Shown here one piece after another: positions 9,134-62,288 of a stretch of DNA of 64,000 nucleotides (positions are counted from its first letter, which is position 1; each line of letters begins with the position of its first letter). This stretch comes from an uncultured Faecalibacterium sp. (GTDB lineage: Bacteria > Bacillota > Clostridia > Oscillospirales > Ruminococcaceae): NCBI GenBank assembly GCA_944385995.1, contig CALWZL010000003.1, positions 41,401-105,400 of the forward strand, written 5' to 3'. A program made the translations under genes and the position numbers. The notes under the pieces were generated by a model. It saw nothing but the letters and a program-made list of their open reading frames with translations, had not been told where the DNA came from and did no database searches.

Positions 9134-9163
9134 GGTATTACCCCTCCTTTTGATTGTACCAAC

Positions 9164-9464: not shown

Positions 9465-9635
9465 TCACCACTTGCCGGTCTTGATGCGGCCCTCCACCAG
9501 GATCAGCAGGAACAGCACCGCTGCCACCAGCACCGCAAGCCATACCGGGCAGAACACCCACACCCAGGACCAGGCAATCAGGTCCAGGCATTTCAGCACA
9601 ATAAAAACCAGCGTCAGTGTCGCAATCATTCCCAT
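9465..9635 (-). CDS. Small two-helix membrane protein (Fragile-X-F-like annotation class)
   Basis: 56 residues from the ATG at 9635, which has GGAGG 8 bases upstream; the longer frame has no ribosome site. Two hydrophobic stretches (about residues 2-16 and 26-49) flank IAWSWVWVFCPVW, a tryptophan-rich turn that I associate with small Firmicute proteins commonly labelled transmembrane Fragile-X-F protein. Function is unknown for that group. It ends with a basic tail GRIKTGKW. The gene is alone between the efflux operon and sdpI. Confidence 0.65.
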   Translation of the reverse strand: MGMIATLTLVFIVLKCLDLIAWSWVWVFCPVWLAVLVAAVLFLLILVEGRIKTGKW

Positions 9636-9719
9636 ATCGGCTTCCTCCATTCCTTTGCATCCGGCTTGCTTGTTTGATGCTATGATAGCAGATTTTGCTG
9701 CGCGGTGCAAGGGCGGCCC

Positions 9720-10736
9720 TCACTGTCCCAGTTTGGCCGTCAGGGTTTGATAGAGGGACTCTGTCGAGGCCGGGTCGGGGCCGTTCAGGACAACGGTATG
9801 GCCGTCGACGCTGAGTACAATGCAGTCGTCACAGGAAGCGTAGGTATAGCGGGTGTAATTGCCGTAAGCGTCATTGGCAAAGGAGCCCATCAGCATCCGC
9901 AAATTTCCAAAGCCATAGGTGCGGGTCCCGGCCCCCGGCGCCGCGTCCCCTGTCTGGTAGGAGATGGCGTCGATGGCGTCATAGGACACCGTCAGGTCGG
10001 ACCAGTACCCGGTCTGAACCGTAAAGGAGGTGTCCCCAAAGTTCACTTCCAGGCTGCCTGCAAACAGGGTCCAGCCGACAAAGGCCATCACCGCCACCAG
10101 AATCACCAACCCGATGACTTTTTGCCGGGGGCTGGACGGACTCCGAACGGCGGTACCTGCCTGGAGCTGTTTCCGGTAGTAGAGATAGGAATAGACACAG
10201 GGCACCACGGCCGCCGCCACAATGGCTGCCGTAAACACCACCGCCATTGCCGCCGAGGGCAGCAGAGCCGCTATCATGCAGGCCAGACCTGCCGCCACCC
10301 ACACCTTGCCGCCAAAGCGATGGGTGACGTTCCAGTTTTCTTCATTTTCCAGGGTCCACTTGACTCGGATTCCGATGGTGGCATTCTGGCGGAATTTGGG
10401 CATATAGTTGCCGATCAGCAAGAACAGCAGGCCAAATCCCAGGTTCATTAGAATAAACATGAAATCTGCACCATCATACCCGCGCTGGAGACCTGCCACC
10501 ACCGCTCCCGACAACAGAGAAATTACCGGCAGCAGCCAGAAAACCAGCCCTATTGCTTTTTTGCTCTGACCCTGCCGGTTCCGCTTGTCGGCAAACACCA
10601 GCAGCAGGCACAGCCAATGGGCTGCCAGCAAAATCACCGCCTCCCATGCCATCCGCCAGCCCAGCAGGCCGGGCAGTAATATGACCAGAGACGAGACCGC
10701 CAGGCTGCTTTTATTCTCCGCCAGTATCTTTTTCAT
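9720..10736 (-). CDS. sdpI: SdpI-family membrane protein
   Basis: 338 residues with six or so membrane helices. The family core is clear at about residues 105-145: GNYMPKFRQNATIGIRVKWT followed by LENEENWNVTHRFGG, the SdpI signature. In Bacillus subtilis SdpI gives immunity to the SdpC killing peptide and also relays a signal to SdpR. Here the N-terminal DUF1648-like part is short and the C-terminal 150 residues form an extra soluble domain likely outside the membrane (EVNFGDTSFTVQTGYWSDL region), longer than the classical 207-residue SdpI. Its start lies inside sdpR (26-bp overlap), so the two are co-translated. Confidence 0.85.
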   Translation of the reverse strand: MKKILAENKSSLAVSSLVILLPGLLGWRMAWEAVILLAAHWLCLLLVFADKRNRQGQSKKAIGLVFWLLPVISLLSGAVVAGLQRGYDGADFMFILMNLGFGLLFLLIGNYMPKFRQNATIGIRVKWTLENEENWNVTHRFGGKVWVAAGLACMIAALLPSAAMAVVFTAAIVAAAVVPCVYSYLYYRKQLQAGTAVRSPSSPRQKVIGLVILVAVMAFVGWTLFAGSLEVNFGDTSFTVQTGYWSDLTVSYDAIDAISYQTGDAAPGAGTRTYGFGNLRMLMGSFANDAYGNYTRYTYASCDDCIVLSVDGHTVVLNGPDPASTESLYQTLTAKLGQ

Positions 10737-16579: not shown

Positions 16580-16630
16580 TCCCTAGGGCCTGAACCGCTG
16601 ACACGCTCCTTGACGAAAACCATACGATTC

Positions 16631-16658
16631 GGGGACCGGTCCGGCCGGTCCCCTTTTT
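16631..16658 (+). terminator. Intrinsic terminator of the fru operon
   Basis: Perfect 9-bp stem GGGGACCGG / CCGGTCCCC with a 5-base loop followed by TTTTT. Confidence 0.9.
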
Positions 16659-16664
16659 GATTGC

Positions 16665-16712
16665 AAAAACCGTCCGCACCGACAGAGCACAATGCCGGTG
16701 CGGACGGTTTTT
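16665..16712. terminator. Bidirectional terminator between fruA and the transposase fragment
   Basis: Perfect 12-bp stem CCGTCCGCACCG / CGGTGCGGACGG flanked by AAAAA on the left and TTTTT on the right. It can stop readthrough from fru and ends the minus-strand transposase gene. Confidence 0.85.
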
Positions 16713-16727
16713 ATGATCCGATGGATT

Positions 16728-17249
16728 TTATGCCATTTCCAGCTGAACCACTTCGGGGGCGCTGTCCTGGCTCTTCTGGGTCTTTTTCCCCGCAGAGGGC
16801 ACCACACGGACCAGAGCGGCGTCGGTCAGGGTGCCCGGCTTGAGGATCTGGCCATGTTCGGCCAGACGCCGGCGCAGCTCCACCGCAAACTGTCCATTCA
16901 GCCCATTTTTCTCCAGGAGGTGGCGGAACTTGAGCAGAGTGGTGGCATCCGGTACGCTGTCCTCGAGGAAGTCAATCCCCATAAACTTGCGCATGGCGTA
17001 ACTGTCATAAATGGTATCCTCTACCGCCGCAGCCGACAGGTGAAACCAATTTTGCAGCAGGTACATCCGCAGCATCTTTTCAATGCCGACCGGCGGGCGG
17101 CCCCGCAATCCCTGCGGATAATAGGGTTCAATGGCCGAAACCCATTCTTCCCAGGGTACCAGCTCATTCATGGTCTCCAGGAATCGATCCCGCCGGGTGC
17201 TCTTTTTCCGCCTGCTGTATTCCATGTCGCTGAACGTCAACTGACCCAT
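16728..17249 (-). CDS. IS5-group transposase, N-terminal domain only (truncated)
   Basis: 173 residues from the ATG at 17249 (GGAGG 8 bases upstream). It aligns by eye with IS5 InsH: GQLTFSDMEYSRRKK, RDRFLETMNELVPW, then IEPYYPQGLRGRPPVGIEKMLR (shown by key residues), VPDATTLLKFRHLLE and GTLTDA, which holds the first Asp of the DDE triad. After that the sequence ends in a short basic tail PSAGKKTQKSQDSAPEVV. Full enzymes are near 320 residues, so the second Asp and the Glu are missing and transposition is impossible. The frame is intact, has its own ribosome site and a strong terminator, so it may be an expressed DNA-binding remnant. Confidence 0.85.
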   Translation of the reverse strand: MGQLTFSDMEYSRRKKSTRRDRFLETMNELVPWEEWVSAIEPYYPQGLRGRPPVGIEKMLRMYLLQNWFHLSAAAVEDTIYDSYAMRKFMGIDFLEDSVPDATTLLKFRHLLEKNGLNGQFAVELRRRLAEHGQILKPGTLTDAALVRVVPSAGKKTQKSQDSAPEVVQLEMA

Positions 17250-17352
17250 TCTTTCTTCCTCCGCCGTCACTTTTTCTTATTATACTACAAATTTCTCAGT
17301 GTTGGCAGGGGAATTTGTCAATTCTTTCGGGAAATATCCTGCATTCAGCGGA

Positions 17353-17373
17353 AACGGGTTCGGCGAACCCGTT
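17353..17373. repeat. GC-rich 9-bp perfect hairpin AACGGGTTC-GGC-GAACCCGTT
   Basis: The arms at 17353-17361 and 17365-17373 match perfectly around a 3-base loop. It lies between the truncated transposase and the B3/B4 gene, has no T-tract on the plus strand, and could be a left-over insertion-element end or a hairpin just past the B3/B4 terminator. Confidence 0.4.
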
Positions 17374-17379
17374 CCAAAC

Positions 17380-17414
17380 AAAAAAGCCTGCCGCACTTGG
17401 GCAGCAAGCCTTTT
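17380..17414 (-). terminator. Probable terminator of the B3/B4-domain gene
   Basis: On the minus strand GGCTTGCTGCC and GGCAGGC form an imperfect stem followed by TTTTTTG. Confidence 0.55.
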
Positions 17415-17425
17415 CCTATGCCATT

Positions 17426-18082
17426 TCACACCGTCCACTGCTCCAGGTCGGTCACCCCGCAGTATTGCCGGAGCAGTTCTGCAAAGCGCTCCATCCAGGG
17501 GCTCAGCCCTTCCCGTCCATCGAAGCTGTAAAGGATGGAATAAACTTCCCGCTCGCCGTCCTGGATCATAGCCCTGCGGCTGTCACTGGTGGGATTTCCA
17601 AAGGGCCCCTCTGCATCGTACAGCACCGGCAGACATCCGATGTTGACGCTCCCCTTCCCAATGCCGGGGTAGTGGGCGCCCTCCTCGGCGCGGCGAAGTT
17701 CCACATCTCCGTGCAGGCCGGAGGCATCGTAAGAGCCGATGGAATAGCCGGAAGAAACCGAAATGCAGTTGTTGACCTCCACCACGTTGTTGATGTGGTA
17801 AAGTCCCGCCTTCTTGACGATCCGGCGAAGCATAGCCTCCGCCGCATTGCGGTACTCGTGGGGCGACTTGCCCAGAGCCTTATATGCGCTGCGGGTGGCG
17901 GCAATGTGGGGATTCTTCGCAATCTGTTCCATCTGGTATTCCCCGGCCAGCTTTGCAAGGGTCCCTTCAAACACTTCCAGCAGTTCCGGCGAACTGGGTT
18001 CCACCCTCACATGATAGTGGAGAATTCCAAGGGCTGTCTCCGGCCAAAGAGAATGTACTTCCTCTGCAATGGAAATTTTCAT
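17426..18082 (-). CDS. B3/B4 tRNA-binding domain protein
   Basis: 218 residues forming a free-standing B3/B4 domain, the editing module otherwise found in the phenylalanyl-tRNA synthetase beta chain. YKALGKSPHEYRNAAEAMLRR and the NNVVEVNNCISV/GYSIGSYDASGL segments are the recognisable core. Stand-alone members are proposed to act on mischarged aminoacyl-tRNA or D-amino acid adducts, but their role is not settled. A GAGAAAC ribosome site precedes the ATG at 18082. It is transcribed alone; the 248 bp upstream contain no other gene. Confidence 0.8.
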   Translation of the reverse strand: MKISIAEEVHSLWPETALGILHYHVRVEPSSPELLEVFEGTLAKLAGEYQMEQIAKNPHIAATRSAYKALGKSPHEYRNAAEAMLRRIVKKAGLYHINNVVEVNNCISVSSGYSIGSYDASGLHGDVELRRAEEGAHYPGIGKGSVNIGCLPVLYDAEGPFGNPTSDSRRAMIQDGEREVYSILYSFDGREGLSPWMERFAELLRQYCGVTDLEQWTV

Positions 18083-44800: not shown

Positions 44801-45997
44801 ATGGGCGCAATCATCAACAATCTTCAGCAAATTTTTGCCAATTCAGGCTATGCACAGATTTTCACCGCAGTGGGCGGCTACCGCTATGCCGTTATGCTGC
44901 TGGTGGCCTGCATCCTGATCTATCTGGCAATCGTACATCAGTTTGAACCCCTTTTGCTGCTGCCGATTGGTTTCGGTATGCTGATGGCCAACCTGCCGCT
45001 GGACGGCATCATCCACATGGACATCTTCATCAACGAGACCGGCCACATCGACTGGCAGATGCTGGGCAGCTCGGGCGGCCTGGCCGACTACATCTATTTG
45101 GGCGTCAAACTGGGCATCTATCCGCCGTTGATCTTCCTGGGCATCGGCACCATGACCGACTTTGAGCCCCTGATCGCCCGCCCCTCCAGCCTGCTGCTGG
45201 GTGCGGCTGCCCAGCTGGGCATCTTTGTGGCTTACACCGGCGCCCGCCTGCTGGGCTTCAGCCCCGCTGAGGCGGCTTCCATCGGCATCATCGGCGGCGC
45301 GGACGGCCCCACCGCCATTCTGACCACCTCCATCCTGGCCCCCGAACTGCTGGGCTCGGTGGCCGTGGCAGCCTATTGCTACATGGCGCTGGTGCCGGTC
45401 ATTCAGCCCCCCATCATGCGGCTGCTGACCACCGACAAGGAGCGCCAGATCATCATGGAGGCTCCCCGCAAGGTCAGCCACACCGAAAAGGTCCTGTTCC
45501 CCATCATTGTCACCATCCTGGTCAGCCTCCTGCTGCCGGATGCCGCCATCCTGATCGGCTGCCTGATGATGGGCAACCTGATGAAGGAATCCGGCGTGGT
45601 GGAGCGCATCACCAAGACCGCCGGCAATGAGCTGATGAACATCATCACCATCTTCCTGGGCTTCTCGGTGGGCTGCACCACCAACGCTGAGACCTTCCTG
45701 AACATGCGCACCGTCATGGTCATCGTGCTGGGCGTCTTTGCATTCGCCTTCGGCACCGCCGGCGGCGTTCTGCTGGGCAAGGTCATGTGCTTTGTCACCC
45801 ACGGCAAGATCAACCCCCTGATCGGTTCCGCCGGCGTCTCGGCTGTCCCCATGGCAGCCCGCGTCTCCCAGAAGGTGGGCCAGGAGTTCAACCCCCGCAA
45901 CTATCTGTTGATGCACGCCATGGGCCCCAACGTGGCCGGCGTCATCGGCAGCGCAGTCGCCGCCGGTATCCTCATCAATATGTGCCGCGGCCTGTAA
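44801..45997 (+). CDS. Na+-translocating decarboxylase beta subunit (GcdB/OadB)
   Basis: 398 residues, about eleven helices. The beta-subunit motifs are plain: GFGMLMANLP, GVKLGIYPPLIFLGIGTMTDFEPLIARPS (key residues GIGTMTDF), SIGIIGGADGPTAI with the Na+-binding Asp, and NPLIGSAGVSAVPMAARVSQ. It decarboxylates the carboxybiotin and pumps Na+ out. The alpha (carboxyltransferase) and biotin carrier genes are not adjacent, so the substrate (oxaloacetate, glutaconyl-CoA or methylmalonyl-CoA) cannot be told. Confidence 0.95.
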   Translation: MGAIINNLQQIFANSGYAQIFTAVGGYRYAVMLLVACILIYLAIVHQFEPLLLLPIGFGMLMANLPLDGIIHMDIFINETGHIDWQMLGSSGGLADYIYLGVKLGIYPPLIFLGIGTMTDFEPLIARPSSLLLGAAAQLGIFVAYTGARLLGFSPAEAASIGIIGGADGPTAILTTSILAPELLGSVAVAAYCYMALVPVIQPPIMRLLTTDKERQIIMEAPRKVSHTEKVLFPIIVTILVSLLLPDAAILIGCLMMGNLMKESGVVERITKTAGNELMNIITIFLGFSVGCTTNAETFLNMRTVMVIVLGVFAFAFGTAGGVLLGKVMCFVTHGKINPLIGSAGVSAVPMAARVSQKVGQEFNPRNYLLMHAMGPNVAGVIGSAVAAGILINMCRGL

Positions 45998-50606: not shown

Positions 50607-50707
50607 GAAGGCGTATGAGATCGAAAAAACGGCCGTTCCGACCCGATATCCCGGGGCAGAGCGTGCCCCGCCGGCGGCCGTCCCTGCAAGACAAAGGAAA
50701 CTGCATC

Positions 50708-51496
50708 ATGATAAACATTCAAAACTACGTCCAGGCCCAAAGTCTGGAGGAGGCCTACCAGCTCAACCAGAAGCGGAATGCCCGCATCCTGGGCGGGATG
50801 CTCTGGACCAAGATGGAAGAGGGCAACGTGGGCACCGCCATCGACCTGTGCCGTCTGGGACTGGATACCATCCAGGAGACCGAGGACCAGTTCTCCATCG
50901 GAGCCATGGTCACCCTGCGGCAGATGGAACAGCACCCCGGCCTCAACGCCTACACCCACGGGATGGCCGCCCGGGCGGTCCGGGACATCGTGGGGGTCCA
51001 GTTCCGCAATATGGCAACCATCGGCGGCAGCATCTGGGGCCGGTTCGGCTTTTCGGACCTGCTGACGTTGCTGCTGGCCATGGATACCCAAGTGGAACTG
51101 TACAAAGGGGGCATCGTTCCCCTGGAAACCTTCGCCGCCATGCCCTATGACCGGGATTTGCTGGTGCGGGTCATCCTCCGCAAAGCGCCTCTGGCCCTGT
51201 CTTACCAGGCCATGCGAATCCAGCGGACCGACCTGCCCGTTTTGAACTGCGCCGTGGCAAAAGTGAACGGGGCATACCGGGCCGTCATCGGGGCCCGGCC
51301 CGGCAAGGCCATGGTCCTGCGGGACGACACCGGCCTGCTGGCCGGCGGCATCACCGAAGAAAGCGCCCGGGCTTTCGGGGACTGGGCCGCAGCGCACACC
51401 CCCACCGGCAGCAATGCCCGGGGCAGCGCGGCCTATCGGACCCATCTTGTCAAGGTACTGGTCCGGCGCGGAGCGCTGGAGCTGGGAGGAATGTAA
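50708..51496 (+). CDS. Molybdenum hydroxylase FAD-binding subunit (XdhB-like)
   Basis: 262 residues from the ATG at 50708 (AAAGGAAA upstream). CO-dehydrogenase-flavoprotein fold: ARILGGMLWTKMEEG replaces the usual ARILAGGTDLW loop, and FRNMATIGGSIWGRFGFSDLL is the second FAD loop. It is 20-30 residues shorter than XdhB and the first FAD loop is altered, so flavin binding deserves checking. It would accept electrons from the iron-sulfur subunit. Translation probably couples to the next gene, 3 bp away. Confidence 0.85.
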   Translation: MINIQNYVQAQSLEEAYQLNQKRNARILGGMLWTKMEEGNVGTAIDLCRLGLDTIQETEDQFSIGAMVTLRQMEQHPGLNAYTHGMAARAVRDIVGVQFRNMATIGGSIWGRFGFSDLLTLLLAMDTQVELYKGGIVPLETFAAMPYDRDLLVRVILRKAPLALSYQAMRIQRTDLPVLNCAVAKVNGAYRAVIGARPGKAMVLRDDTGLLAGGITEESARAFGDWAAAHTPTGSNARGSAAYRTHLVKVLVRRGALELGGM

Positions 51497-51499
51497 AGC

Positions 51500-51979
51500 A
51501 TGGAACTCAAACTGACTTTGAACGGCCGGCCCGTCACCGGCTCCATCGACCCCGACTGCCTGCTGATCGATTTTCTCCGGGAGCACGGCTGTCTGAGCGT
51601 CAAGCGGGGGTGCGACACCTCCAACTGCGGCCTGTGCACCGTCCTGATGGACGGCAAGCCCATCCTCTCCTGCTCGATGCTGGCGGCCCGGGCCGCCGGC
51701 CACAGCGTCCAGACTCTGGAAGGGTTACAGGAGGAAGCCGCCGATTTTGTGGGATTCATCGCCGACCAGGGGGCCGATCAGTGCGGCTTCTGCAATCCCG
51801 GTTTTGTCATGAATACCATCGCCCTGCTGCGGGAAATCCCCGACCCCACCGACGACGAGATTCGGTCTTTTCTGGCCGGCAATCTCTGCCGCTGTTCCGG
51901 CTATGAGGGACAGCTGCGGGGCATCCGCAGCTATTTGGAGAGCCGCAGGGAAAAAGGAGACAGCCGCCATGGAGCATAA
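51500..51979 (+). CDS. Molybdenum hydroxylase 2x[2Fe-2S] subunit (XdhC-like)
   Basis: 159 residues. The plant-type cluster is held by Cys38, 43, 46 and 58 (GCDTSNCGLCTV and LSC), the second cluster by Cys95, 98, 130 and 132 (QCGFCNPGF and LCRC). All eight ligands are present. It carries electrons from the Mo centre to FAD. Its last 11 bases overlap the large subunit gene. Confidence 0.95.
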   Translation: MELKLTLNGRPVTGSIDPDCLLIDFLREHGCLSVKRGCDTSNCGLCTVLMDGKPILSCSMLAARAAGHSVQTLEGLQEEAADFVGFIADQGADQCGFCNPGFVMNTIALLREIPDPTDDEIRSFLAGNLCRCSGYEGQLRGIRSYLESRREKGDSRHGA

Positions 51980-54257
51980 AGCATATCATTCCATCAACCA
52001 CCCCGTCCGCAAAAAGGACGCCATGCAGCTTTTGCTGGGCAAGCCGGTTTACACCGACGACATCACCCCCCGGGATGCCCTGGTGGTGAAAATCCTCCGC
52101 TCCCCCCACGCTAACGCCATCGTCCGGGAGATCAACACCGCCGGCGCCCTGAAAATCCCCGGCGTGGTGGCCATCTACACCTGGAAGGATGTGCCCCAGA
52201 ACCGCTTTACCATCGCGGGCCAGACCTATCCCGAGCCCTCCCCCTATGACCGCCTGATTCTGGACCGGCACGTCCGGTTTGTGGGAGACGCGGTGGCCAT
52301 CATTGCCGCCGAGACCGAGAAGGCCGCCCTGCGGGCCATGAAGGTCATCCAGGTTCAGTATGAGGTACTGGAAGCAGTGCTGGACCCCCACACCGCCAAG
52401 GACAACCCGGTTCTGGTCCACCCCGAGGAGGACTGGGTCGCCCCCTGTCCGGTGGGCGGTGACAACCACCGCAACCTGATCGCCAGCGACACCAACAGCG
52501 CCGGCGACATCGACGCGGTGCTGGCCGACTGTGACATCGTGTTGGACCGCACCTACCACACCAAAGCCTACAGCCAGGCCATGATGGAGACCTTCCGCAC
52601 CTACGCCGAACTGGACGCCTACGGGCGGCTCCACATCATTTCCTCCACCCAGATCGTGTTCCATGTCCGGCGGATTCTCTCCCGGGCCCTGGGTATTCCC
52701 AAGAGCCGTATCCGGGTGGAGAAACCCCGGATCGGCGGCGGCTTCGGGGCCAAGCAGACCGCCGTCTGCGAGGTCTACCCCGCCTTTGTCACCCTCAAGA
52801 CCGGCCGCCCCTCCAAGCTGATTTATACCCGGGAGGAATCCCAGATTGCCGGCAGCCCCCGCCACGAGATGGAAATCCACGTCCGTCTGGGCGCCGACAA
52901 GGACGGCCGCATCCGGGGCATCGACCTGTACACCCTGTCCAACTCGGGGGCCTACGGCGAGCACGGCCCCACCACCGTCGGCCTGTCGGGCCACAAGTCC
53001 ATCCCCCTCTACACCGGCAGCCTGGAGGCCTACCGTTTCAGCTATGACGTAGTTTACACCAACCTCCAGGCCGCGGGCGCCTACCGCGGCTACGGGGCCA
53101 CCCAGGGCATCTACGCCCTGGAGACCACCGTCAACGAGCTGGCCGAGCGGCTGGGCGTCGACCCCACCGTCCTGCGGGACCGGAACATGGTTCGGGAAAG
53201 GATGCAGATGCCGGCCTACTACAACGAAATGGCCAACGCCTGCGCCCTGGACCGCTGCATGGAACATTGCCGTCAGATCTTCCACTGGGACGAAAAGTAC
53301 CCGGTGCGGGACATGGGCAACGGCAAGGTCCGGGCGGCGGGCGTCGCCATGGCCATGCAGGGCTCCTGTATTTCCAATGTGGACGTGGGTTCCGCCACCA
53401 TGAAACTGAGCGAGGACGGCACCTATAACCTCATCATCGGCGCGGCGGACATGGGCACCGGCTGCGACACCATTCTGGCCCAGATGGCCGCCGAATGTAT
53501 GGATTGCAGCGTGGACGACATCGCGGTCTTTGGCGCCGACACCGACGCCTCCCCCTACGATTCAGGCTCCTACGCCTCCTCCACCACCTATATCACCGGC
53601 AAAGCCGTAGAGCAGGCCTGCGCCCAGCTCAAGACCAAAATCTGCTCCATCGCCGCCGAAATGCTGGGCTGCGACGCCGGAGAGATCGTCTTTGAGGGCA
53701 AGCAGGTGCGCCGCCTCTCCACCGGCCAGACCCTGACCCTGGAGGAGATCGGCTACAAGTCCCAGGTGTTCAACACCCAGGCTGCCGAGGTCACCGCCAC
53801 CCACTCTTCCCCCGTCTCACCCCCGCCCTACATGGTGGGCATGGTGGAAATCGAGCTGGACAAGGAAACCGGCCTTGTCACCATCCTGGACTATATGGCG
53901 GTGGTGGACTGCGGCATCCCCATCAACCCGGCCCTGGCCCGGATTCAGACCGAGGGCGGCATCGTCCAGGGCATCGGCCACACCCTGATGGAGGATGTCC
54001 AGTACGACCACAACGGCAGGCCCATCGGCTCCTCCTTCCTGCAGTACAAGATCCCCACCCGCCTGGACATGGGCCATCTGCGGGTAGAGTTTGAGCACAG
54101 CTACGAGCCCACCGGCCCCTTCGGCGCCAAGTCCATCGGCGAAATCGTCATCAACACCCCTGCCCCCGCCCTGACCCACGCCATCTACCGGGCCACCGGG
54201 GTCTGGCACCGGGAAATCCCCATCACCCCCGAGCAGATCGCCCTCTCTCTGGAATAA
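51969..54257 (+). CDS. Molybdenum hydroxylase large (Mo-binding) subunit, xanthine dehydrogenase family
   Basis: 762 residues from the ATG at 51969 (AAGGAG 9 bases upstream). RIGGGFGAKQTAVCEVYPA and AYRGYGATQGIYALE bind the molybdopterin, and the C-terminal FGAKSIGEIVINTP holds the catalytic Glu. TYASSTTYITGKAVEQACAQLKTKI is a further family landmark, shown by key residues. The subunit hydroxylates an aromatic N-heterocycle; xanthine, hypoxanthine or nicotinate-type substrates are all possible. The separate FAD and Fe-S chains give an XdhABC-type heterotrimer. Confidence 0.93.
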   Translation: MEHKAYHSINHPVRKKDAMQLLLGKPVYTDDITPRDALVVKILRSPHANAIVREINTAGALKIPGVVAIYTWKDVPQNRFTIAGQTYPEPSPYDRLILDRHVRFVGDAVAIIAAETEKAALRAMKVIQVQYEVLEAVLDPHTAKDNPVLVHPEEDWVAPCPVGGDNHRNLIASDTNSAGDIDAVLADCDIVLDRTYHTKAYSQAMMETFRTYAELDAYGRLHIISSTQIVFHVRRILSRALGIPKSRIRVEKPRIGGGFGAKQTAVCEVYPAFVTLKTGRPSKLIYTREESQIAGSPRHEMEIHVRLGADKDGRIRGIDLYTLSNSGAYGEHGPTTVGLSGHKSIPLYTGSLEAYRFSYDVVYTNLQAAGAYRGYGATQGIYALETTVNELAERLGVDPTVLRDRNMVRERMQMPAYYNEMANACALDRCMEHCRQIFHWDEKYPVRDMGNGKVRAAGVAMAMQGSCISNVDVGSATMKLSEDGTYNLIIGAADMGTGCDTILAQMAAECMDCSVDDIAVFGADTDASPYDSGSYASSTTYITGKAVEQACAQLKTKICSIAAEMLGCDAGEIVFEGKQVRRLSTGQTLTLEEIGYKSQVFNTQAAEVTATHSSPVSPPPYMVGMVEIELDKETGLVTILDYMAVVDCGIPINPALARIQTEGGIVQGIGHTLMEDVQYDHNGRPIGSSFLQYKIPTRLDMGHLRVEFEHSYEPTGPFGAKSIGEIVINTPAPALTHAIYRATGVWHREIPITPEQIALSLE

Positions 54258-54406: not shown

Positions 54407-54470
<64 letters not shown>

Positions 54471-54482
<12 letters not shown>

Positions 54483-54855: not shown

Positions 54856-54905
54856 TTGACCTGGATGCCGCCTTGTTTTACAATAAACAGGAGATAAACT
54901 GTTTA
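54856..54905 (+). promoter_or_regulatory. lacI-like gene promoter with operator TAAACTGTTTA
   Basis: TTGACC (54856-54861), 17-bp spacer, TACAAT (54879-54884). The 11-bp palindrome TAAAC-T-GTTTA (54895-54905) lies about 5-15 bases after the start point; the same palindrome with a G centre occurs in the symporter promoter, indicating autoregulation. Confidence 0.75.
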
Positions 54906-54931
54906 CCTGATGCAGTGAAAAGAGGTACTTT

Positions 54932-55921
54932 ATGGCTACAATCAAGGATATTGCGGATGAAGTCGGGATTTCCAAGGCGGCCGTCTCGCGCATCCTGAAC
55001 CACAAGGGCTCTTTCAGTCCCGAGACGATCGCCAACGTAGAGCGTGTCGCCCACCGGCTGAAGTACACCCTTCCCTCCGCTTCCCAACAGGAAGATGTGG
55101 CGCTCAGCAAGGTGATCGCGGCCATCTTTCCGGTCGTGGAACTGCCCTACTTTGGCCTGGTGGCCTCCTTACTGGAAAAAAGAGCCTACAGCTACGGCTA
55201 TAATCTGATGCTCTGCGGCTCCCTGTTTGACCGCCATAAAGAAGAGGAGTGCTTTAAAAGCCTGCAGGAAAAAAAGATCAGCGGGATCATCCTGGGCAGC
55301 TACACCAAAGATATTACCATGCTGGAAAACCAGAATCTTCCCGTTGTCACCTTGGGATACAAACTGGCGGACACCATTCCGTCGGTCTGTGCCGACAATT
55401 ATGCGGCCGGCAAAATTGCTGCGCGCCATCTCCTGAGCAAGGGATGCAGAAAATTGCTGTATATCACCAGCTATCAGGAGGGCCTGGAACGCGACCTGCG
55501 GTATAAGGGCTTTGCTGACGAGCTGCACATCCGGCAGCTGGCCCCATGGGTGTATCAGGTCAACATGAAAATGCAGTTGTCCAATGATTTTTCTGAGATC
55601 ATCACCCAGATGGCGCTGGATCATCCAGACGCGGACGGCGTATTCGCCGAAACAGACGCCCTGGCGATGAACTGTCTCCAGGTTTTCCCCAGCCTGGGAT
55701 ACCGGATTCCCCAGGACATCAAGGTCGTCGGCTATGGCAACCCCTTCTTTTCTGCATTTTCCAATCCCAAGCTGACCATCGTGCGCGAAAACACCGAGGA
55801 AATCGCACGCCGGGCCGTCTCTCTGCTGGTCGACCTGATCGAAAACGACGAGGAACGCGAAAATCTGCGCGCCTCGGAAATCATTGTGCCGGTTTCCCTG
55901 AACGAGCAAAAGACCACCTGA
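54932..55921 (+). CDS. LacI-family repressor of the esterase-symporter operon
   Basis: 329 residues. The LacI DNA-binding domain is ATIKDIADEVGISKAAVSRILNHKG with hinge helix near PSASQ. The effector domain (about 60-325) has PYFGLVASLLEKRAYSYGY, GIILGSY, SVCADNYAAGKIAARHLLSKG and VVGYGNPFFSAFSNPKLTIVREN. A sugar ligand is expected. AAGAGG precedes the ATG. It is followed by its own terminator and then by the seven-kilobase symporter-esterase operon with a matching operator. Confidence 0.93.
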   Translation: MATIKDIADEVGISKAAVSRILNHKGSFSPETIANVERVAHRLKYTLPSASQQEDVALSKVIAAIFPVVELPYFGLVASLLEKRAYSYGYNLMLCGSLFDRHKEEECFKSLQEKKISGIILGSYTKDITMLENQNLPVVTLGYKLADTIPSVCADNYAAGKIAARHLLSKGCRKLLYITSYQEGLERDLRYKGFADELHIRQLAPWVYQVNMKMQLSNDFSEIITQMALDHPDADGVFAETDALAMNCLQVFPSLGYRIPQDIKVVGYGNPFFSAFSNPKLTIVRENTEEIARRAVSLLVDLIENDEERENLRASEIIVPVSLNEQKTT

Positions 55922-55944
55922 AGATCAATAGTTTCTTCTTTTCT

Positions 55945-55975
55945 CGCCGTTGTTTAATCAACATCGGCGTTTTTC
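55945..55975 (+). terminator. Terminator of the lacI-like gene
   Basis: CGCCGTTGTT / AACATCGGCG, 10-bp stem with one mismatch, followed by TTTTTC. Confidence 0.8.
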
Positions 55976-56101
55976 TATGCAACTAGTTAACTAAACATCA
56001 GAGATTTTAAAATGTTACAAGTTCTATATGGTGATGTTGCTATATATTTTCTCCAAATATTGTAGAAATCATAGAATATGACGGCAACTTTCGTAAATCT
56101 G

Positions 56102-56133
56102 TTGACTTATTCAGTTAAACGGTTTACTATAAT
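56102..56133 (+). promoter_or_regulatory. Symporter-esterase operon promoter with LacI-type operator TAAACGGTTTA
   Basis: TTGACT (56102-56107), 17-bp spacer, TACTAT (56125-56130), overlapping TATAAT (56128-56133). TAAAC-G-GTTTA (56116-56126) sits in the spacer and touches the -10 box, so the repressor would block RNA polymerase. Confidence 0.78.
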
Positions 56134-56198
56134 GCTGTCACATGTGATGCTCTTATCCACGCTGCACTGTTCATGAAAAAGATGGAGGAAACATTTCT

Positions 56199-57548
56199 AT
56201 GAAAACACCCACCAAAGAGATGACCTGGCTTGAAAAAGTCAGCTTTGGCTGTGGAAACATGGGCTTGTGCCTGTGCACCACCATGATTACATCCTTTTCG
56301 ATGTATTTCTATTCCAACGTCATGGGCTTAACCATGGCGCAGATCAGTACCATCATGCTGATCGGCGGCATTGCAGACGCCATCTCGGACCCTCTGACCG
56401 GCATTTTCATCGACAAGACCAACACCCGCTGGGGCAAAGCCCGGCCCTATCTGCTGGTTTTCGCCATTCCTCTGGCCGCCGCCTGCTATGCGGTGTTCAC
56501 CGTCCCCAATATGGGACCTGACGCCCGCTACATCTACGCTCTGGTCACCTATGTCCTGTACACCCTCGCCTATACCCTGATCTGCATTCCCCAGAACTGC
56601 CTGATCCCCGCCCTGACCGACAACAGCAAGGACCGTCTGGATGTCAATATGTGCGGCACCCTGGGCACCAACATCGGCCAGTTCATCCCCAGCGGCCTGG
56701 GCCTGACCCTGGTCGCCATCCTGGGCGGCGGCTCGGAGGAGAGCGGCTTCTCCCGCGCCATTCTGCTGCTCTCGGTGCTGGGCGTGCTGCTGATCCTGAT
56801 GGACTTCAAAAACACCAACGAGCGCTGCAATCCTCCCAAAGAGCAGAAGGCCACCCTGCGTGACATCCTCCGCTCCATGAAGAACCTCCCCTGGTTCCTG
56901 TGCACCTGCGTTTCCCTGCTGGTCATCGCCACCGTGGTGGTCCGCGCCAGCCAGGCGGTTTACTTCGCCACTTATGTGCTGGAAAATCCCGGCCTCGCTT
57001 CTCCCCTGCTGTCCATCTCCAGTGTCATCGGCATCCCCGTCGCTCTGGTCATCCCCTTCCTGGCCACCAAGCTGGGCAAGCGCAATCTGGTCCTGCTGGG
57101 CAGCATCATGGGCGTCGCCGGCAACGTGGGCGTCTATCTGTTCAAGCACAGTTCCTTTATGATTATGTTCTGGTCCGTCATCCTCTCTCTGGGGATCGGC
57201 GTCATCAACGGCATCATCTATGTCATGAGCGCCGAGTGCATCGACTACGGCGAGTGGAAAATGGGCATCCGCATTCAGGGCTTCCTGATGGCCTTTGTGG
57301 GCTTCGCCGTCAAAGTTGCAAACTCCATCTGCACCATGCTGCTCTCCCTCATCCTGGGCTGGGGCGGCTACGATGCGACGGCTGCCGTTCAGTCTGAGTC
57401 CGCCATCCGGGCCATTGAGTTCAACTATCTGGGCCTGCCCCTGATCCTGTTTGTCCTGATTATCGTCTGCATGCTGTTCTACAACCTGGACAAGCAGTAT
57501 CCCGCCATCCGTGATGAACTGGAAAAGCGCCGCGCTGCTGCACAGTAA
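56199..57548 (+). CDS. GPH-family glycoside/oligosaccharide:cation symporter
   Basis: 449 residues, 12 helices. The family signature after helix 2 is ISDPLTGIFIDKTNTRWGK followed by ARPYLL, and MSAECIDYGEWKMGIRIQG in the central loop is the second GPH landmark. Members import di- or oligosaccharides and glycosides with Na+ or H+. The operon that follows encodes four esterase-type enzymes, so the cargo is probably an acylated sugar. AGATGGAGGA precedes the ATG. Confidence 0.92.
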   Translation: MKTPTKEMTWLEKVSFGCGNMGLCLCTTMITSFSMYFYSNVMGLTMAQISTIMLIGGIADAISDPLTGIFIDKTNTRWGKARPYLLVFAIPLAAACYAVFTVPNMGPDARYIYALVTYVLYTLAYTLICIPQNCLIPALTDNSKDRLDVNMCGTLGTNIGQFIPSGLGLTLVAILGGGSEESGFSRAILLLSVLGVLLILMDFKNTNERCNPPKEQKATLRDILRSMKNLPWFLCTCVSLLVIATVVVRASQAVYFATYVLENPGLASPLLSISSVIGIPVALVIPFLATKLGKRNLVLLGSIMGVAGNVGVYLFKHSSFMIMFWSVILSLGIGVINGIIYVMSAECIDYGEWKMGIRIQGFLMAFVGFAVKVANSICTMLLSLILGWGGYDATAAVQSESAIRAIEFNYLGLPLILFVLIIVCMLFYNLDKQYPAIRDELEKRRAAAQ

Positions 57549-57603
57549 GCCGGGACCTTTTGCCAGGATCGCCGCTCATTGAGTATCAACAGGAGGTAAC
57601 AAG

Positions 57604-58488
57604 ATGCTCCCTATCAGCATTCCCACCAAGATGGAAGAAGAAATTCTGGAACACGTCTATGCACCCAAAACCGCCTGGACGGTGCAGACTGTCATTGACA
57701 AGGTGCTCCATGATATGTGCGGCGGCCCCAAGTTTGAGCAGACCTGTGATATCATCTCGGTCGGCAGCCCCGACCAGCCGGTCACCGGCGTGGTCACCAC
57801 CTTTATGGCCACCTTTGACGTGATTCAGGAGGCGGTGCGCCAGGGCAAAAACTTCATCATCACCCATGAGCCCACCTGGTTCACCGGCACCGACAAGACC
57901 GACTGGTGCCAGAACGACAGCGTCTACCTCGCCAAGCGGAAATACCTGGAAGATCACGGCATCACCGTGTGGCGTCTGCACGACCACATGCACATGGGCT
58001 GTGAGGTGGATTACATTTACGAGGGCCTGCTGCAGGAGCTGGACTGGAAACAATATCTCCAGCCCGACGAAAAATTCCCCTGGATCTATGAAATCCCCGA
58101 AACCACCATCGGCGCGCTGGCAGACCTGTGCAAGGAAAAGCTGGGAATGGACACCGTCCAGATCATCGGCAGCCCTGACATGAAGGTCAAGCGGGTGGGC
58201 ATCCTGGTGGGAGGCGGCAGCCTCGGCTTCGGCGTGGAGGAAATGCCCATGCAGGTCATGGAGCGCAACCGCCTCGATCTGATGATGGCCGGCGACATCA
58301 CCGAATGGACCATCTGCGCCTACATCAACGACGCCTATCAGATGGGGATGAACCGCGGCATGCTGACCCTGGGCCACGAGCGCAGCGAGGAAGCCGGCAT
58401 GAAGTACCTGGCTTCCTGGATGCAGGAGCGTTTTCCCGACCTGCCCATCAGCTTTGTGGATGCAAAAGAGCCATTCAAATATCTGTAA
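57604..58488 (+). CDS. NIF3/DUF34-family dinuclear metal protein
   Basis: 294 residues of the NIF3-like fold. Metal ligands are readable: THEP (87-90), HDHMH (126-130), and a late GHERSEEAGM. The substrate is unknown for most of the family; the housekeeping paralogue is linked to GTP cyclohydrolase I type 2 annotation, which is disputed. Here it lies inside a carbohydrate operon (55 bp after the symporter, 15 bp before an esterase), suggesting a role as a metal-dependent hydrolase in that pathway. AGGAGG precedes the ATG. Confidence 0.85.
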   Translation: MLPISIPTKMEEEILEHVYAPKTAWTVQTVIDKVLHDMCGGPKFEQTCDIISVGSPDQPVTGVVTTFMATFDVIQEAVRQGKNFIITHEPTWFTGTDKTDWCQNDSVYLAKRKYLEDHGITVWRLHDHMHMGCEVDYIYEGLLQELDWKQYLQPDEKFPWIYEIPETTIGALADLCKEKLGMDTVQIIGSPDMKVKRVGILVGGGSLGFGVEEMPMQVMERNRLDLMMAGDITEWTICAYINDAYQMGMNRGMLTLGHERSEEAGMKYLASWMQERFPDLPISFVDAKEPFKYL

Positions 58489-58503
58489 GGAGGTCTGTTC
58501 CCC

Positions 58504-59301
58504 ATGGCCGTCGTCGATGTATCCTTTATCTCCCACGCCCTCAAGCGTCAGGTCAGCTTCAAGGCCCTGATCCCTACCGACTACACCTTCCGCCCCGACC
58601 TGCCCGAAACGCCCTTCCAAACCGCGCCGGCTCCCACCCTCTACCTGCTCCACGGCTTCACCGGATGCAGCACGGATTTCCTGTATGGTTCGTCCATCTT
58701 CCAGCTGGCTCTCCAGCACAACATCGCCGTGGTGATGCCCAACGGTGAAAACGCCTTTTATCTGGAGGACCGGGAAAAGGGCGAGGATTACAGCCGGTTT
58801 GTGGGCAAAGAGCTGGTGGATTTCACCCGCAGCATGTTCCGCCTGTCAGACAGGCGGGAGGACACCTTCATCGGCGGCATGTCGATGGGCGGTTACGGCG
58901 CGCTGATTACCGCCCTGCGCTATCCCGACACTTTCGGCAAGGTGATGTCGGTCTCGGGCGCCTACGTTGCCCTGGAGTTTGCCGATCAAAAGCGGTACAT
59001 CCCGGATTTCAACTCCAGCGAGGCCTATCAGCGCACCTTCTTCGGCGACGTGGAAACCATGCGTCAGCGGGATATGGACCCCCGTTTCTGTATGGAGGAG
59101 CTGCGCCGCCAGGGCAAGGCGCTGCCGGAGATCTACTTTGCCTGCGGCGAACAGGATTTCATGATCGCCCAGAACCGCAAGCTGCACCAGTACATGGAAG
59201 AAAACGGCGTAAACCACGTTTACTACGAAGGCGAAGGCGCCCACGACTGGAACTACTGGAACCCGCATCTCACCCGGGCTCTGGAATGGATGGTCCGGTA
59301 A
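58504..59301 (+). CDS. Serine esterase, esterase-D-like (first copy)
   Basis: 265 residues, alpha/beta hydrolase of the putative-esterase family (PF00756). LYLLHGFTG (46-54) forms the oxyanion region, GMSMGG has the nucleophile Ser127, CGEQDFM the Asp and GAHDWNYW the His. No signal peptide, so it acts in the cytoplasm. Related enzymes include acetylxylan and other carbohydrate esterases. It shares much of its layout with the enzyme encoded at 61414, including DRREDTFIGG before the nucleophile; the two are probably paralogues. Confidence 0.88.
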   Translation: MAVVDVSFISHALKRQVSFKALIPTDYTFRPDLPETPFQTAPAPTLYLLHGFTGCSTDFLYGSSIFQLALQHNIAVVMPNGENAFYLEDREKGEDYSRFVGKELVDFTRSMFRLSDRREDTFIGGMSMGGYGALITALRYPDTFGKVMSVSGAYVALEFADQKRYIPDFNSSEAYQRTFFGDVETMRQRDMDPRFCMEELRRQGKALPEIYFACGEQDFMIAQNRKLHQYMEENGVNHVYYEGEGAHDWNYWNPHLTRALEWMVR

Positions 59302-59342
59302 GCGCTCTGTGAATCTTGGCATAAGGAAGGAAGAAAACGACA

Positions 59343-60530
59343 ATGAAGTGGGTAAGTGCATTCAGTTATCTGCCGGTCAATTACAGCGTACAGCTGGCCG
59401 AAGCGGCAGACCAGACCCAGCGGATCACCTTTGACAACAACCTCAACGGCAAAACGCTGCGGCTTTGCTTGTCCAACCGCTGGTCAAAGTCCCCTCTGAC
59501 CCTGGCAAAGGTCACCGTCGGCAAAGCCGCCGGGGACGGCGTCCGCGGTGTTCTGCCTGTCACAAGGGACGGCGGTTCCCGGATCACCCTGGCCCCCGGC
59601 GAGGAGTGCTGGAGCGACCCCGTCGCCCTGCCGGTCCAGGCCGGCGACCGCCTCGCCATCCAGACTTATCTGGATCAGCCCCAGTCTGTCGAAAGCATCT
59701 GCGCATTCTGGGCGTCCACAGGACCCATGGTGGAACTGAGCGCCGCCGGCGACTTTACCGATGGGTCGCCCTTTGACCCCATTCCCGCCCAAGAGGTCTA
59801 TCCAGTCATCCGGGCAGACGCCAACAAAGGCTACTTCTTCTATGGCGTGTCCGGCCTGCAGGTGCTGACGGACGACGATGTCAAAACTGTGGTCCTGTTT
59901 GGGGATTCCATCACCCATATGTCCTATGTGTCCAACCCGCTGACCCGTCGCCTCTATGCCGCTTACCCCGGCAAAGTGGCTGTCCTGAACCGCGGCAGCG
60001 GCGGCAACCGCCTCCTCCACAACGCCACCCGGGTGGATTTTCTCCCCGCCGGGGGTGCCTGTTTCGGCACCGCGGGAATCATGCGGTTTGAAAAAGATGT
60101 CTTTGGTCAGGAGAATGCAGATGTCGTGGTGGTTCTGGAAGGCATTAACGACATCATGCACCCCATCCAGTTCCAGCATCCCGACGAGATCATCACGCCG
60201 GAGGAACTGATCTGCGGCCTGCGCTACCTGACGGCCATCACCCGCAAACATGGGGCCAGGATCTTCGGCGCCACCATCACCCCCTGCGGCAACGACGAAT
60301 ATCCCGAGGACTGGCTGCCGCAGTTTGAATCGGTGCGCCTGGAAACCAACCGCCGCATCCGCGCCGGGATCGGCTATGACGGCTGGTTTGATTACGACGC
60401 CGCCGTCCGGGACAATGCCCGGCCCGGCTATATGCTGAAAGAATGCCACATTGGCGACGGCCTCCACCCCAACAACGACGGCGGCGAACGGATGGCAGCT
60501 CAGGTCGATCTGGCTGCCCTGATGGCCTGA
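59343..60530 (+). CDS. SGNH/GDSL carbohydrate esterase with N-terminal beta domain
   Basis: 395 residues. The catalytic SGNH domain begins near residue 180: VVLFGDSITHM (Ser189), RGSGGNRLLHNA (Gly/Asn), GINDIMHP (block III Asn) and GDGLHPNNDG (Asp and His). Residues 1-175 form a beta-rich domain (ITFDNNLNGKTLRLCLSNRW) seen in CE2/CE20-like carbohydrate esterases, where it shapes the substrate site. No signal peptide. Expected to remove acetyl groups from a sugar. Confidence 0.87.
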   Translation: MKWVSAFSYLPVNYSVQLAEAADQTQRITFDNNLNGKTLRLCLSNRWSKSPLTLAKVTVGKAAGDGVRGVLPVTRDGGSRITLAPGEECWSDPVALPVQAGDRLAIQTYLDQPQSVESICAFWASTGPMVELSAAGDFTDGSPFDPIPAQEVYPVIRADANKGYFFYGVSGLQVLTDDDVKTVVLFGDSITHMSYVSNPLTRRLYAAYPGKVAVLNRGSGGNRLLHNATRVDFLPAGGACFGTAGIMRFEKDVFGQENADVVVVLEGINDIMHPIQFQHPDEIITPEELICGLRYLTAITRKHGARIFGATITPCGNDEYPEDWLPQFESVRLETNRRIRAGIGYDGWFDYDAAVRDNARPGYMLKECHIGDGLHPNNDGGERMAAQVDLAALMA

Positions 60531-60546
60531 AGGAAGGAACACTACC

Positions 60547-61413
60547 ATGCCGATTGCAAGAATCAACACCATGCTGTTTCCCGAGGGAAAGCGCCGTGCT
60601 CTGACGCTGAGCTATGACGACGGCGTTCTACAGGACCGGCGCCTGGTCCAGCTGATGAACCAGTGCGGGGTCCGGGGCACCTTCAATCTGAACAGCCGCA
60701 TCCTGGGCCGGGTGGAACAGATGACCCTTGACGGCAAGACGGCGGACATCTCCACCGTCACCCCCCGGGAAATCCCAGTTTTATACGCCGGCCATGAAGT
60801 GGCCACCCACGGGGCGGAACATTCGGCTCTGACTGCCTACGGGAGCGCCGGGCTGTTGGAAGTGCTGGATGACCGCCGGGTACTGGAAGGACTTGTCCCC
60901 TACATGGTCCAGGGCCACGCCTATCCGTTCGGCCTGTACGACGACCATGTCCTCGACGGCCTGCGGGCCGCCGGCATCCGCTATGCCCGCACCGTGGTTT
61001 CCACCGGGACCTTTGAAATTCCCCAGGATTTCCTGCGCTGGGACCCCACCTGCCACCATAACGATCCCCGCCTGATGGAGCTGGCAGAACGTTTCTGCCA
61101 GACAGACGCCCTTTTCGGCCAGCCGCAGCTGTTTTACCTCTGGGGCCACGCCTACGAATTTGACATGGATCAGAATTGGCAGGTAATCGAAACCTTCCTG
61201 CACTACGTCTCCCGGTTCCAGGACAAGATCTGGATGGCCACCAACGGCGAAATCGAGCGCTATGTCGCCGCCTGGCGTCAGATGGTCTTTTCGGCAGACG
61301 GCAGCCGCGTTTACAATCCCACCGCCTTCACCCTCTGGATGGAATCCCTGGGGCAAATCTACACCATCGCCCCCGGCGAAACAGTGTGCATCAAATCAAC
61401 GGAGGCTGTGTAA
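60547..61413 (+). CDS. NodB-type (CE4-like) polysaccharide deacetylase-family protein
   Basis: 288 residues. The first NodB motif is SYDDG at 22-26 (catalytic and metal Asp), and HGAEH supplies metal ligands His88 and His92. LWGHAYEF is the late His motif. No signal peptide or membrane anchor, in contrast to cell-wall deacetylases. Might remove N- or O-acetyl groups from the imported sugar. It lies 16 bp after the SGNH gene and its stop codon abuts the next start (TAAATG). Confidence 0.85.
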   Translation: MPIARINTMLFPEGKRRALTLSYDDGVLQDRRLVQLMNQCGVRGTFNLNSRILGRVEQMTLDGKTADISTVTPREIPVLYAGHEVATHGAEHSALTAYGSAGLLEVLDDRRVLEGLVPYMVQGHAYPFGLYDDHVLDGLRAAGIRYARTVVSTGTFEIPQDFLRWDPTCHHNDPRLMELAERFCQTDALFGQPQLFYLWGHAYEFDMDQNWQVIETFLHYVSRFQDKIWMATNGEIERYVAAWRQMVFSADGSRVYNPTAFTLWMESLGQIYTIAPGETVCIKSTEAV

Positions 61414-62223
61414 ATGGCAATCATCAAAGTGACCTTTGCATCCGAATCGCTCGCTCGCTACATTGATCTGAACGTCATCCTTCCGGTAGAAGCCCCGGGC
61501 CAGCCGGGCGCACCCGAGACGCTGGCTGCCAAGGCAGCCAAACCCGAGAAGTTCAAAACGCTCTATCTGCTCCACGGTTATGGGGGAAACCAGGAGGACT
61601 GGCTCACCTGTGCCAATATCCGCGCGCTGGCCGAGGAAACCAATCTGGCTGTGGTGATGCCGGCAGGCGAAAACAGCTTTTATGTGGACGGCGAGGCCGC
61701 CGGCACCCGCTGGGGCGAGATGGCAGGCAAAGAGGTGGTGGAATTCACCCGCCGGCTCTTTCCTCTCTCGGATCGCCGCGAAGACACTTTCATCGGCGGG
61801 CTGTCCATGGGCGGCTTCGGCGCAGTCCGGCTGGGCAGCTTTTACCACGACACCTTTGGCAAGATTTTCTCCCTCTCGGGCGCGTTCATCGTGGACGATA
61901 TCGCCGGGCAGAGGCCGGGCTATCTGGACGGCGTGGGCGATTACGCTTACTATGCCCACACCTTCGGGGATCTGGACCAGTTGAAAAACAGCCCCAAAGA
62001 TCCCGTCTGGTGCGTGAAGCAGGCCATCCAGGCCGGCCATGTCCCCCAGATTTACATGGCCTGCGGCGATCAGGATTTCCTGATCCGTGAAAACCGTTCC
62101 ACCAAAAAACAGCTGGAGCAGATGGGCGCACGCCTGTTCTATCAGGAAACGCCCGGCATCCATGACTGGAAATTCTGGAACCAGCACCTGGAGCCCGCCA
62201 TCCGCTGGCTGCTGAAAAACTGA
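61414..62223 (+). CDS. Serine esterase, esterase-D-like (second copy)
   Basis: 269 residues of the same family as the enzyme at 58504. LYLLHGYGG, nucleophile Ser131 in GGLSMGGFGA, Asp in CGDQDFLI and His in PGIHDWKFW are intact. No signal peptide. The pair of paralogues in one operon suggests different acyl positions or chain lengths on one substrate. The start codon follows the previous stop without a gap, so translation is coupled. Confidence 0.88.
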   Translation: MAIIKVTFASESLARYIDLNVILPVEAPGQPGAPETLAAKAAKPEKFKTLYLLHGYGGNQEDWLTCANIRALAEETNLAVVMPAGENSFYVDGEAAGTRWGEMAGKEVVEFTRRLFPLSDRREDTFIGGLSMGGFGAVRLGSFYHDTFGKIFSLSGAFIVDDIAGQRPGYLDGVGDYAYYAHTFGDLDQLKNSPKDPVWCVKQAIQAGHVPQIYMACGDQDFLIRENRSTKKQLEQMGARLFYQETPGIHDWKFWNQHLEPAIRWLLKN

Positions 62224-62246: not shown

Positions 62247-62288
62247 GAAGGCCATTTGCCGGGATTCTGGCAAATGGCCTTCCCTTTT
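62247..62288 (+). terminator. Terminator of the esterase operon
   Basis: GAAGGCCATTTGCC / GGCAAATGGCCTTC, 14-bp perfect stem with an 8-base loop followed by CCTTTTG. Confidence 0.8.

Follow-up and report, generated by a model that had tools for sequence, protein, structure and literature searches.

What does a bacterium take up through an operon that encodes a sugar importer, a repressor and four deacylase-type enzymes, and that holds no gene for cleaving a glycosidic bond? Such an operon lies at positions 54932-62223 of a 64,000-nucleotide stretch of DNA, here called the window, from an uncultured Faecalibacterium sp. (GenBank assembly GCA_944385995.1, contig CALWZL010000003.1, positions 41,401 to 105,400). 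Its seven intact open reading frames (ORFs), all on the + strand, encode a LacI-family repressor, a GPH-family sugar:cation symporter, a NIF3/DUF34 protein, a PF00756 esterase (EstA), an SGNH esterase, a NodB-type deacetylase and a second PF00756 esterase (EstB). Gene content and context give good support to a general function in cytoplasmic de-esterification under a repressor of its own. Esterified sucroses are widespread among plant metabolites, and a sucrose core is our best single guess for the substrate: with a probability of roughly 0.43, the operon de-esterifies imported acylated sucrose in the cytoplasm, and the freed sugar is cleaved later by enzymes of glycoside hydrolase family 32 (GH32). 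A small, multiply esterified sugar, most likely acylated sucrose, would enter through the symporter, EstA, EstB, the SGNH enzyme and NodB would strip different acyl groups from it, and other parts of the genome would supply the enzymes that cleave the freed disaccharide, here GH32; in other bacteria, a sucrose kinase and a sucrose-6F-phosphate phosphorylase are encoded beside the esterases. The argument rests on gene content, intact active sites, operator-like sites and two linkages, of NIF3 with esterases and of EstB-type genes with a kinase (five loci), all as read from the DNA; the transport direction, the plant origin of the substrate and the order of the steps we infer.

Families were assigned by Pfam and NCBIfam matches, to LacI (54932-55921; PF00356/PF13377), the symporter (56199-57548; TIGR00792, 331 bits against a cut-off of 231), NIF3 (57604-58488; PF01784), EstA (58504-59301), the SGNH protein (59343-60530; PF13472, two domains), NodB (60547-61413; PF01522, CE4 type) and EstB (61414-62223). 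An initial annotation had described the symporter, NIF3 and the four enzymes as one co-directional set under LacI with gaps of 0-55 bp, no signal peptides, one promoter and one terminator. The set and its direction are borne out, as are the gaps from the symporter onward (55, 15, 41, 16 and 0 bp), with 277 bp between LacI and the symporter gene. All seven proteins lack a signal-peptide-like N-terminus, judged by a strongly hydrophobic 12-residue segment sought in the first 40 residues (highest mean 1.58, in EstA), and one terminator-like hairpin with 16 pairs and a short T tail follows EstB (62247-62282, + strand), terminator-like sites being no more frequent in the window than in shuffled sequence (9 versus 8.5). 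The single promoter gave way to two promoter-like sites on the + strand, one ahead of lacI (54856-54884, TTGACC-17-TACAAT) and one ahead of the symporter and the other structural genes (56102-56130); the window has 9 such sites, versus 3.4 in shuffles. Therefore lacI is probably driven by its own promoter. The operon genes are presumably co-transcribed.

The active-site residues of the four deacylases are intact. EstA and EstB carry the GxSxG motif (GMSMGG and GLSMGG, respectively) and the C-terminal histidine (HDW in both) of carbohydrate-type PF00756 esterases. The SGNH protein keeps GDSI, GGN, GxND and DGLHP, aligns with the profile of 7toj over positions 24-394 of 396, in keeping with the two-domain architecture of FjoAcXE-like esterases, and has 9kr0, an SGNH protein, as its best PDB match. 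In NodB, D25, H88 and H92, which we take to be the Asp-His-His metal ligands of CE4, are invariant in 12 sequences.

To ask which genes travel together, we compared 16 distinct loci (L numbers; their genomes carry G numbers) whose NIF3 is at least 50% identical to that of the window with 26 NodB-centred control loci (39-46% identity), which were among the best-scoring NodB matches rather than a random draw. L134 and L169 duplicate L015 and L018, respectively, and did not enter the counts. Partners were counted by tblastn with chosen references, not by full annotation of each locus, the Pfam scan of neighbors was partial, and contigs of 6-21 kb (NIF3 loci) and 4-18 kb (controls) can hide neighbors. 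A gene matching the window's EstA, EstB or SGNH is present at no more than 8 kb from NIF3 in 10 of the 16 loci and absent from all 26 controls (Fisher 5e-6); the counts are 6 of 12 versus 0 of 26 when the four window-like operons are removed (3e-4). With esterase references drawn from the loci themselves, which favors them, the counts are 14/16 and 1/26; an esterase is then missing from just two NIF3 loci, L019 and L056, the second of which has NIF3 at the contig end. NIF3 relatives below 50% identity were rejected as members of the same system overall, an esterase reference matching in 4 of 15 such loci only. NodB was rejected as an anchor for the operon: it occurs in 92 of 291 class genomes at E<=1e-20, and the 26 NodB loci have no EstA, EstB, SGNH or NIF3 match, so NodB is a widespread family of mixed context.

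Among the closest homologous operons, L011 (Lachnospiraceae) has LacI-NIF3-EstA-SGNH-NodB-EstB in the window's order, with 67-81% identity from NIF3 to EstB and no symporter in line, and this shared order is therefore not a chance arrangement. Parts of the operon recur in L012, L014 and L018, the last with SGNH, NodB and EstB 53-57% identical to those of the window, and LacI relatives 58-72% identical occur in L011, L012 and L018; the module of several cytoplasmic deacylases with transporter and LacI that the initial annotation had recognized thus holds up. The symporter itself is not conserved. That of the window is 25-29% identical to the GPH proteins of homologous loci, a different GPH type is common to L011-L013 and L015-L018 (57-86% identity to the L011 protein), and five loci (L056, L136-L139) have an ABC transporter whose binding protein resembles DUF3502-domain ones, with two-component genes nearby. 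DUF3237 proteins recur in the ABC-transporter loci (L136 10138-10572, L137 8696-9097, L139 1518-1934). L018 also holds an inverted symporter fragment and a NIF3 truncated on its 5' side (8816-10519), by rearrangement or assembly error.

What points to sucrose is a P-loop kinase gene that follows an EstB-type gene in L018, L137, L138, L162 and L188, with the Walker A motif GGSGVGKS in all eight copies examined. A GH13_18 phosphorylase gene comes next after the kinase in L137, L162 and L188 and is fused to it in L138, where both share one open 652-codon ORF cut by the contig end (1-1956, - strand); L162 and L188 have the esterase-kinase-phosphorylase trio without NIF3 in the stretch examined. 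The top solved match of the L137 phosphorylase, at 562 bits with the next at 288, is 6S9U (IcSPP), described as a strict sucrose-6F-phosphate phosphorylase of Ilumatobacter coccineus (PMC6720575), and the YYQ motif given there for that clade is present in the phosphorylases of L137, L162, L163 and L188. In L189 a GH36-kinase fusion (942-residue ORF), whose C-terminal part is a homolog of this kinase, precedes the same phosphorylase, the layout reported for the Ruminococcus gnavus AgaSK cluster (PMC6521584; kinase activity, PMC7688924). In L020 a sucrose phosphorylase (714 bits, cut-off 334) is joined with NIF3 and an esterase. A sucrose-type gene, meaning the kinase or a sucrose(-6F-phosphate) phosphorylase, is present in a total of 4 of the 16 NIF3 loci.

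In L018 the kinase starts 14 bp past a relative 54% identical to the window's EstB. Its genome (G514) has three close kinase copies, one behind GH36, one behind GH32 and a PfkB kinase, and one behind EstB, as if each sucrose-yielding route had its own kinase. An assembly artefact was considered and rejected, since the copies differ (411/444, 407/434 and 391/433 aligned bases identical) and no two of them follow the same gene. In L190 (5053-11750), an EstB-like esterase (30%), a NodB relative (47%), a sucrose kinase and a phosphorylase in two ORFs stand in line, with no NIF3 in the stretch examined. A beta-lactamase-family gene beside the L181 kinase was not counted as an esterase.

The reading was also tested against gene content outside the operon. 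The window's genome has five GH32 matches, on other contigs, and GH32 or GH13_18 occurs in 19 of 19 NIF3-relative genomes searched for both, although the base rates of these families were not measured; the four genomes without GH32 (G569, G684, G866 and G867) all have GH13_18, and G141 and G161 were covered by the kinase and GH13_18 search alone. GH43 is present in 16 of the 19 genomes and has no match in that of the window and two others; among the five genomes with window-like operons, it is absent from that of the window and from G863 and present in the other three (GH10, GH39, GH3 and GH120 were not searched). This genome content, with GH32 and without GH43, fits sucrose better than xylan for the window, which is not proof. 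The initial annotation had placed depolymerization elsewhere, had proposed an imported oligosaccharide or glycoside as substrate, and had named acetylated mannan or xylan as targets of such esterases in gut Firmicutes. It is plausible that enzymes from other parts of the genome cleave the freed sugar, and an oligosaccharide of plant polysaccharides is not the best fit for the window, given sucrose-type genes in 4 of the 16 loci and beside EstB-type genes in five loci, and no GH43 match in its genome.

Regulation appears to be local. The exact palindrome TAAACNGTTTAC occurs twice in the genome assembly (2.25 Mb, 87.7% complete), both times at this operon on the + strand: just past the -10 of the lacI promoter, between that promoter-like site and lacI (TAAACTGTTTAC, 54895-54906, converted from contig coordinates), and within the structural-gene promoter (TAAACGGTTTAC, 56116-56127). 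At the stringency of the strict motif, LacI seems to control this locus alone. It would repress its own gene and the operon, and the sugar or a deacylated product would release it. A distal LacI regulon, including a distal glycosidase under the same repressor, was considered and is not indicated at the motif level, where weaker sites were not searched. The looser pattern TAAAMNGTTTAY occurs in three distinct places (four rows) of the assembly, two of them the operon sites. L011 and L012 have sites with 2-3 mismatches to the window operator ahead of the first structural gene; because L011 has three further operator-like sites with 3 mismatches in the scanned stretch, L018 has one and L014 none, conservation of the operator among homologous loci is only suggested.

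Several observations weigh against acylated sucrose. Neither the window operon and the rest of its genome, nor the L011 operon and the rest of its assembled genome, has a match to the sucrose kinase or GH13_18, and the GH32 proteins on which cleavage would then depend may be fructanases. Sucrose-type genes are confined to 4 of the 16 NIF3 loci, and in the Lachnospiraceae sample 16 of 22 kinase loci show neither an esterase nor NIF3 by the references used. In a tree, the kinase-linked esterases of L137, L138, L162 and L188, with that of L062, form a clade apart from both window esterases; the L018 esterase alone falls near the window's EstB, in a grouping without resolved support, and L018 comes from a metagenome-assembled genome, with its NIF3 and symporter genes broken and its kinase gene running off the contig. 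The nearest characterized relatives of the window's SGNH protein, PbeAcXE and CspAcXE, deacetylate acetylated glucuronoxylan (PMC9105624). The looser operator pattern gave four rows versus two for its reversed control, so that only the strict form is telling. Finally, the NIF3 clade is not specific to sucrose, as its glycosidases indicate.

A glycosidase or phosphorylase gene is present in at least 7 of the 16 NIF3 loci. L013, L015 and L017 have a GH39-AraC fusion and a BD-FAE esterase (by Pfam in L013, by similarity in L015 and L017), L135 has GH2 and GH1, and three have GH13_18 enzymes, namely the sucrose phosphorylase of L020 and the enzymes of L137 and L138; the GH39-AraC hit in L137 is to the AraC part alone and was not counted, L137 counting through its phosphorylase. 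The fusions (L013 7168-9726, L015 5957-8626 and L017 7177-9771), possibly enzyme-regulators, lie near genes for the BD-FAE esterase and a GPH symporter and run opposite to NIF3; those of L015 and L017 are 69-70% identical to that of L013. The glycosidase references have no match in the four closest operons (L011, L012, L014 and L018), three of which are contig-cut or partial. The absence of any glycosidase, stressed in the initial annotation, accordingly describes the window operon and its four closest relatives and fails as a rule, and the finding that it had named as its own refutation, a glycosidase or phosphorylase regularly present in homologous operons, has in good part been made in the wider family.

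These partners give the acylated-sucrose reading its strongest rival, itself rather doubtful: a broad deacylation module for acylated glycosides (phenolic, mannosidic or sucrose), whose core sugar varies with the host operon and which in the window would serve some such glycoside. The diversity among the 16 loci (GH39 in three, GH2 and GH1 in one, sucrose-type genes in four, none found in the rest) is what it would predict, and a UbiD gene and an FMN enoate-reductase-like gene are among the neighbors in L015 and L017. Against it, the core-sugar enzyme that recurs beside an EstB-type gene is the sucrose kinase, in five loci. It is unlikely that the operon instead imports and deacetylates acetylated (glucurono)xylo-oligosaccharides for xylosidases elsewhere to finish. 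The SGNH protein, as a full-length relative of PbeAcXE and CspAcXE, would suit that substrate, and so would the three NIF3 loci that combine GH39-AraC and a GPH symporter with a member of BD-FAE, an acetylxylan/feruloyl esterase family (PMC8165983). The window's protein nevertheless has GDSIT, invariant in eight aligned sequences, in place of GNSI, the signature motif given for the FjoAcXE family (PMC9105624), GH43 is missing from two of the five genomes with window-like operons, and those operons match no glycosidase reference. Deacetylation of N-acetylated amino-sugar oligosaccharides with NodB as the key enzyme is very improbable, since family membership makes three of the four enzymes serine ester hydrolases and the NodB relative of L190 adjoins a sucrose kinase and a sucrose-6F-phosphate phosphorylase, even though NodB keeps its CE4 ligands (D, H, H) and has weak profile similarity to peptidoglycan and chitin deacetylases.

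Besides the deacylases, the acylated-sucrose reading has to accommodate NIF3. The protein belongs to PF01784 (72.5 bits, cut-off 23.4) and falls short of the TIGR00486 equivalog (56.4 versus 130.55 bits); where SA1388 has the metal motif HHPLIF, it has HEPTWF. Because H88-E89 (HH in SA1388), W123-R124, H126-D127 and H130 (an HDxxH motif), H258 and E262-E263 are invariant in 19 aligned members, the sequences of this divergent clade suggest a conserved substrate pocket and a metal site whose composition has changed. A 2021 survey of the DUF34 family proposes a role as metal chaperone or insertase (PMC8469502); in its text, the terms sugar, symporter, carbohydrate, LacI and glycos are absent and esterase appears once, in a table. 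As a dedicated partner that probably depends on a metal, NIF3 would act either as an additional hydrolase or by metallating or protecting one of the enzymes. The safer statement is that it has a dedicated role in the operon, as enzyme or chaperone alike. With sugar esterases as neighbors in 14 of 16 loci, this clade offers a concrete context for assays of a poorly understood family.

Among the 31 genomes of the window's genus, a NodB relative occurs in two, that of the window and one at 42% identity. The initial annotation had proposed looking for the same gene order in other Oscillospirales; in the window's family, NIF3 occurs at E<=1e-20 in 8 of 197 genomes, counting that of the window, with the full operon absent in the stretches around the other seven, and the order is kept instead in Lachnospiraceae L011. 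At E<=1e-40, NIF3 occurs in 5 of 291 class-sample genomes and, at E<=1e-60, in 8 of 348 genomes of the family of G512, the genome of L011 (center genome included in both), and a scan of an 84,980-species collection by peptide patterns, which are not exhaustive, gave ten loci. Horizontal transfer of the operon is likely, because the top matches (76-81%) come from records with Lachnospiraceae and other titles, the best in its own family apart from itself is 56% identical, and the two families appear to be distinct, their samples apparently not overlapping. The operon is probably mobile. A tRNA-Ala (GGC) gene, the sole tRNA gene in the window, lies directly upstream of it (54407-54482), and the G+C content drops from about 0.63 to 0.49-0.53 across lacI and its flanks, both compatible with insertion beside a tRNA gene. 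In L011, a phage-integrase gene about 0.5 kb past EstB is followed by a gene for a protein with a Cas12f1-like TNB domain, TnpB-like (15112-17744).

Two other features of the window lie upstream. Three genes at 50615-54257 encode the FAD, [2Fe-2S] and molybdopterin subunits of a molybdenum hydroxylase, and 44801-45997 encodes the beta subunit of an enzyme of the Na+-transporting oxaloacetate-decarboxylase type.

A title-level literature search found no description of this gene combination or of gut bacteria breaking down acyl-sucroses; paper titles do mention Polygala sucrose esters together with gut microbiota, a sign of interest in this class of substrate. Plant acylsugars of Solanaceae and hydroxycinnamoyl sucroses are possible substrates. 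More tentatively, the operon could be the regulated core of a bacterial pathway that handles acylated sucroses (plant acylsugars, hydroxycinnamoyl-acetyl sucroses) and has yet to be described. This pathway would have spread among Clostridia with interchangeable GPH or ABC transporters and sucrose-cleaving ends, and the NIF3 clade would be a dedicated metal enzyme in it, a catabolic role for DUF34. With four separable deacylases and a local repressor in one defined operon, the acyl-sucrose question can be put to the test.

The operon is a variation on already known intracellular carbohydrate-esterase modules. Like the Rgaga1 cluster of R. gnavus (AgaSK sucrose kinase, sucrose-6F-phosphate phosphorylase and ABC transporter), it would import a sugar and process it in the cell to sucrose, and the kinase and phosphorylase of Rgaga1 are the pair that adjoins esterases in some of its relatives; Rgaga1 strips galactose with GH36, whereas these relatives carry esterases, some with NIF3, and the window operon has neither kinase nor phosphorylase. 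With the FjoAcXE-like acetyl xylan esterases PbeAcXE and CspAcXE, its SGNH protein shares an N-terminal domain followed by SGNH, aligned over nearly the full length, but it has GDSI rather than GNSI, no GGLGP and no signal-peptide-like N-terminus, and no xylan gene was found in the operon. EstA and EstB share length, catalytic serine motif and an aligned C-terminal histidine region with intracellular PF00756 esterases (4rgy, tributyrin esterase 2uz0 and EstA 4rot), from which the window differs in having two diverged copies in a single operon with SGNH and NodB. NIF3 shares a Pfam family and conserved histidine and acidic positions with the NIF3/DUF34 proteins YbgI and SA1388, yet has HE rather than HH, scores under the TIGR00486 cut-off and adjoins sugar esterases; its closest solved relative, 9g9u, likewise has HE.

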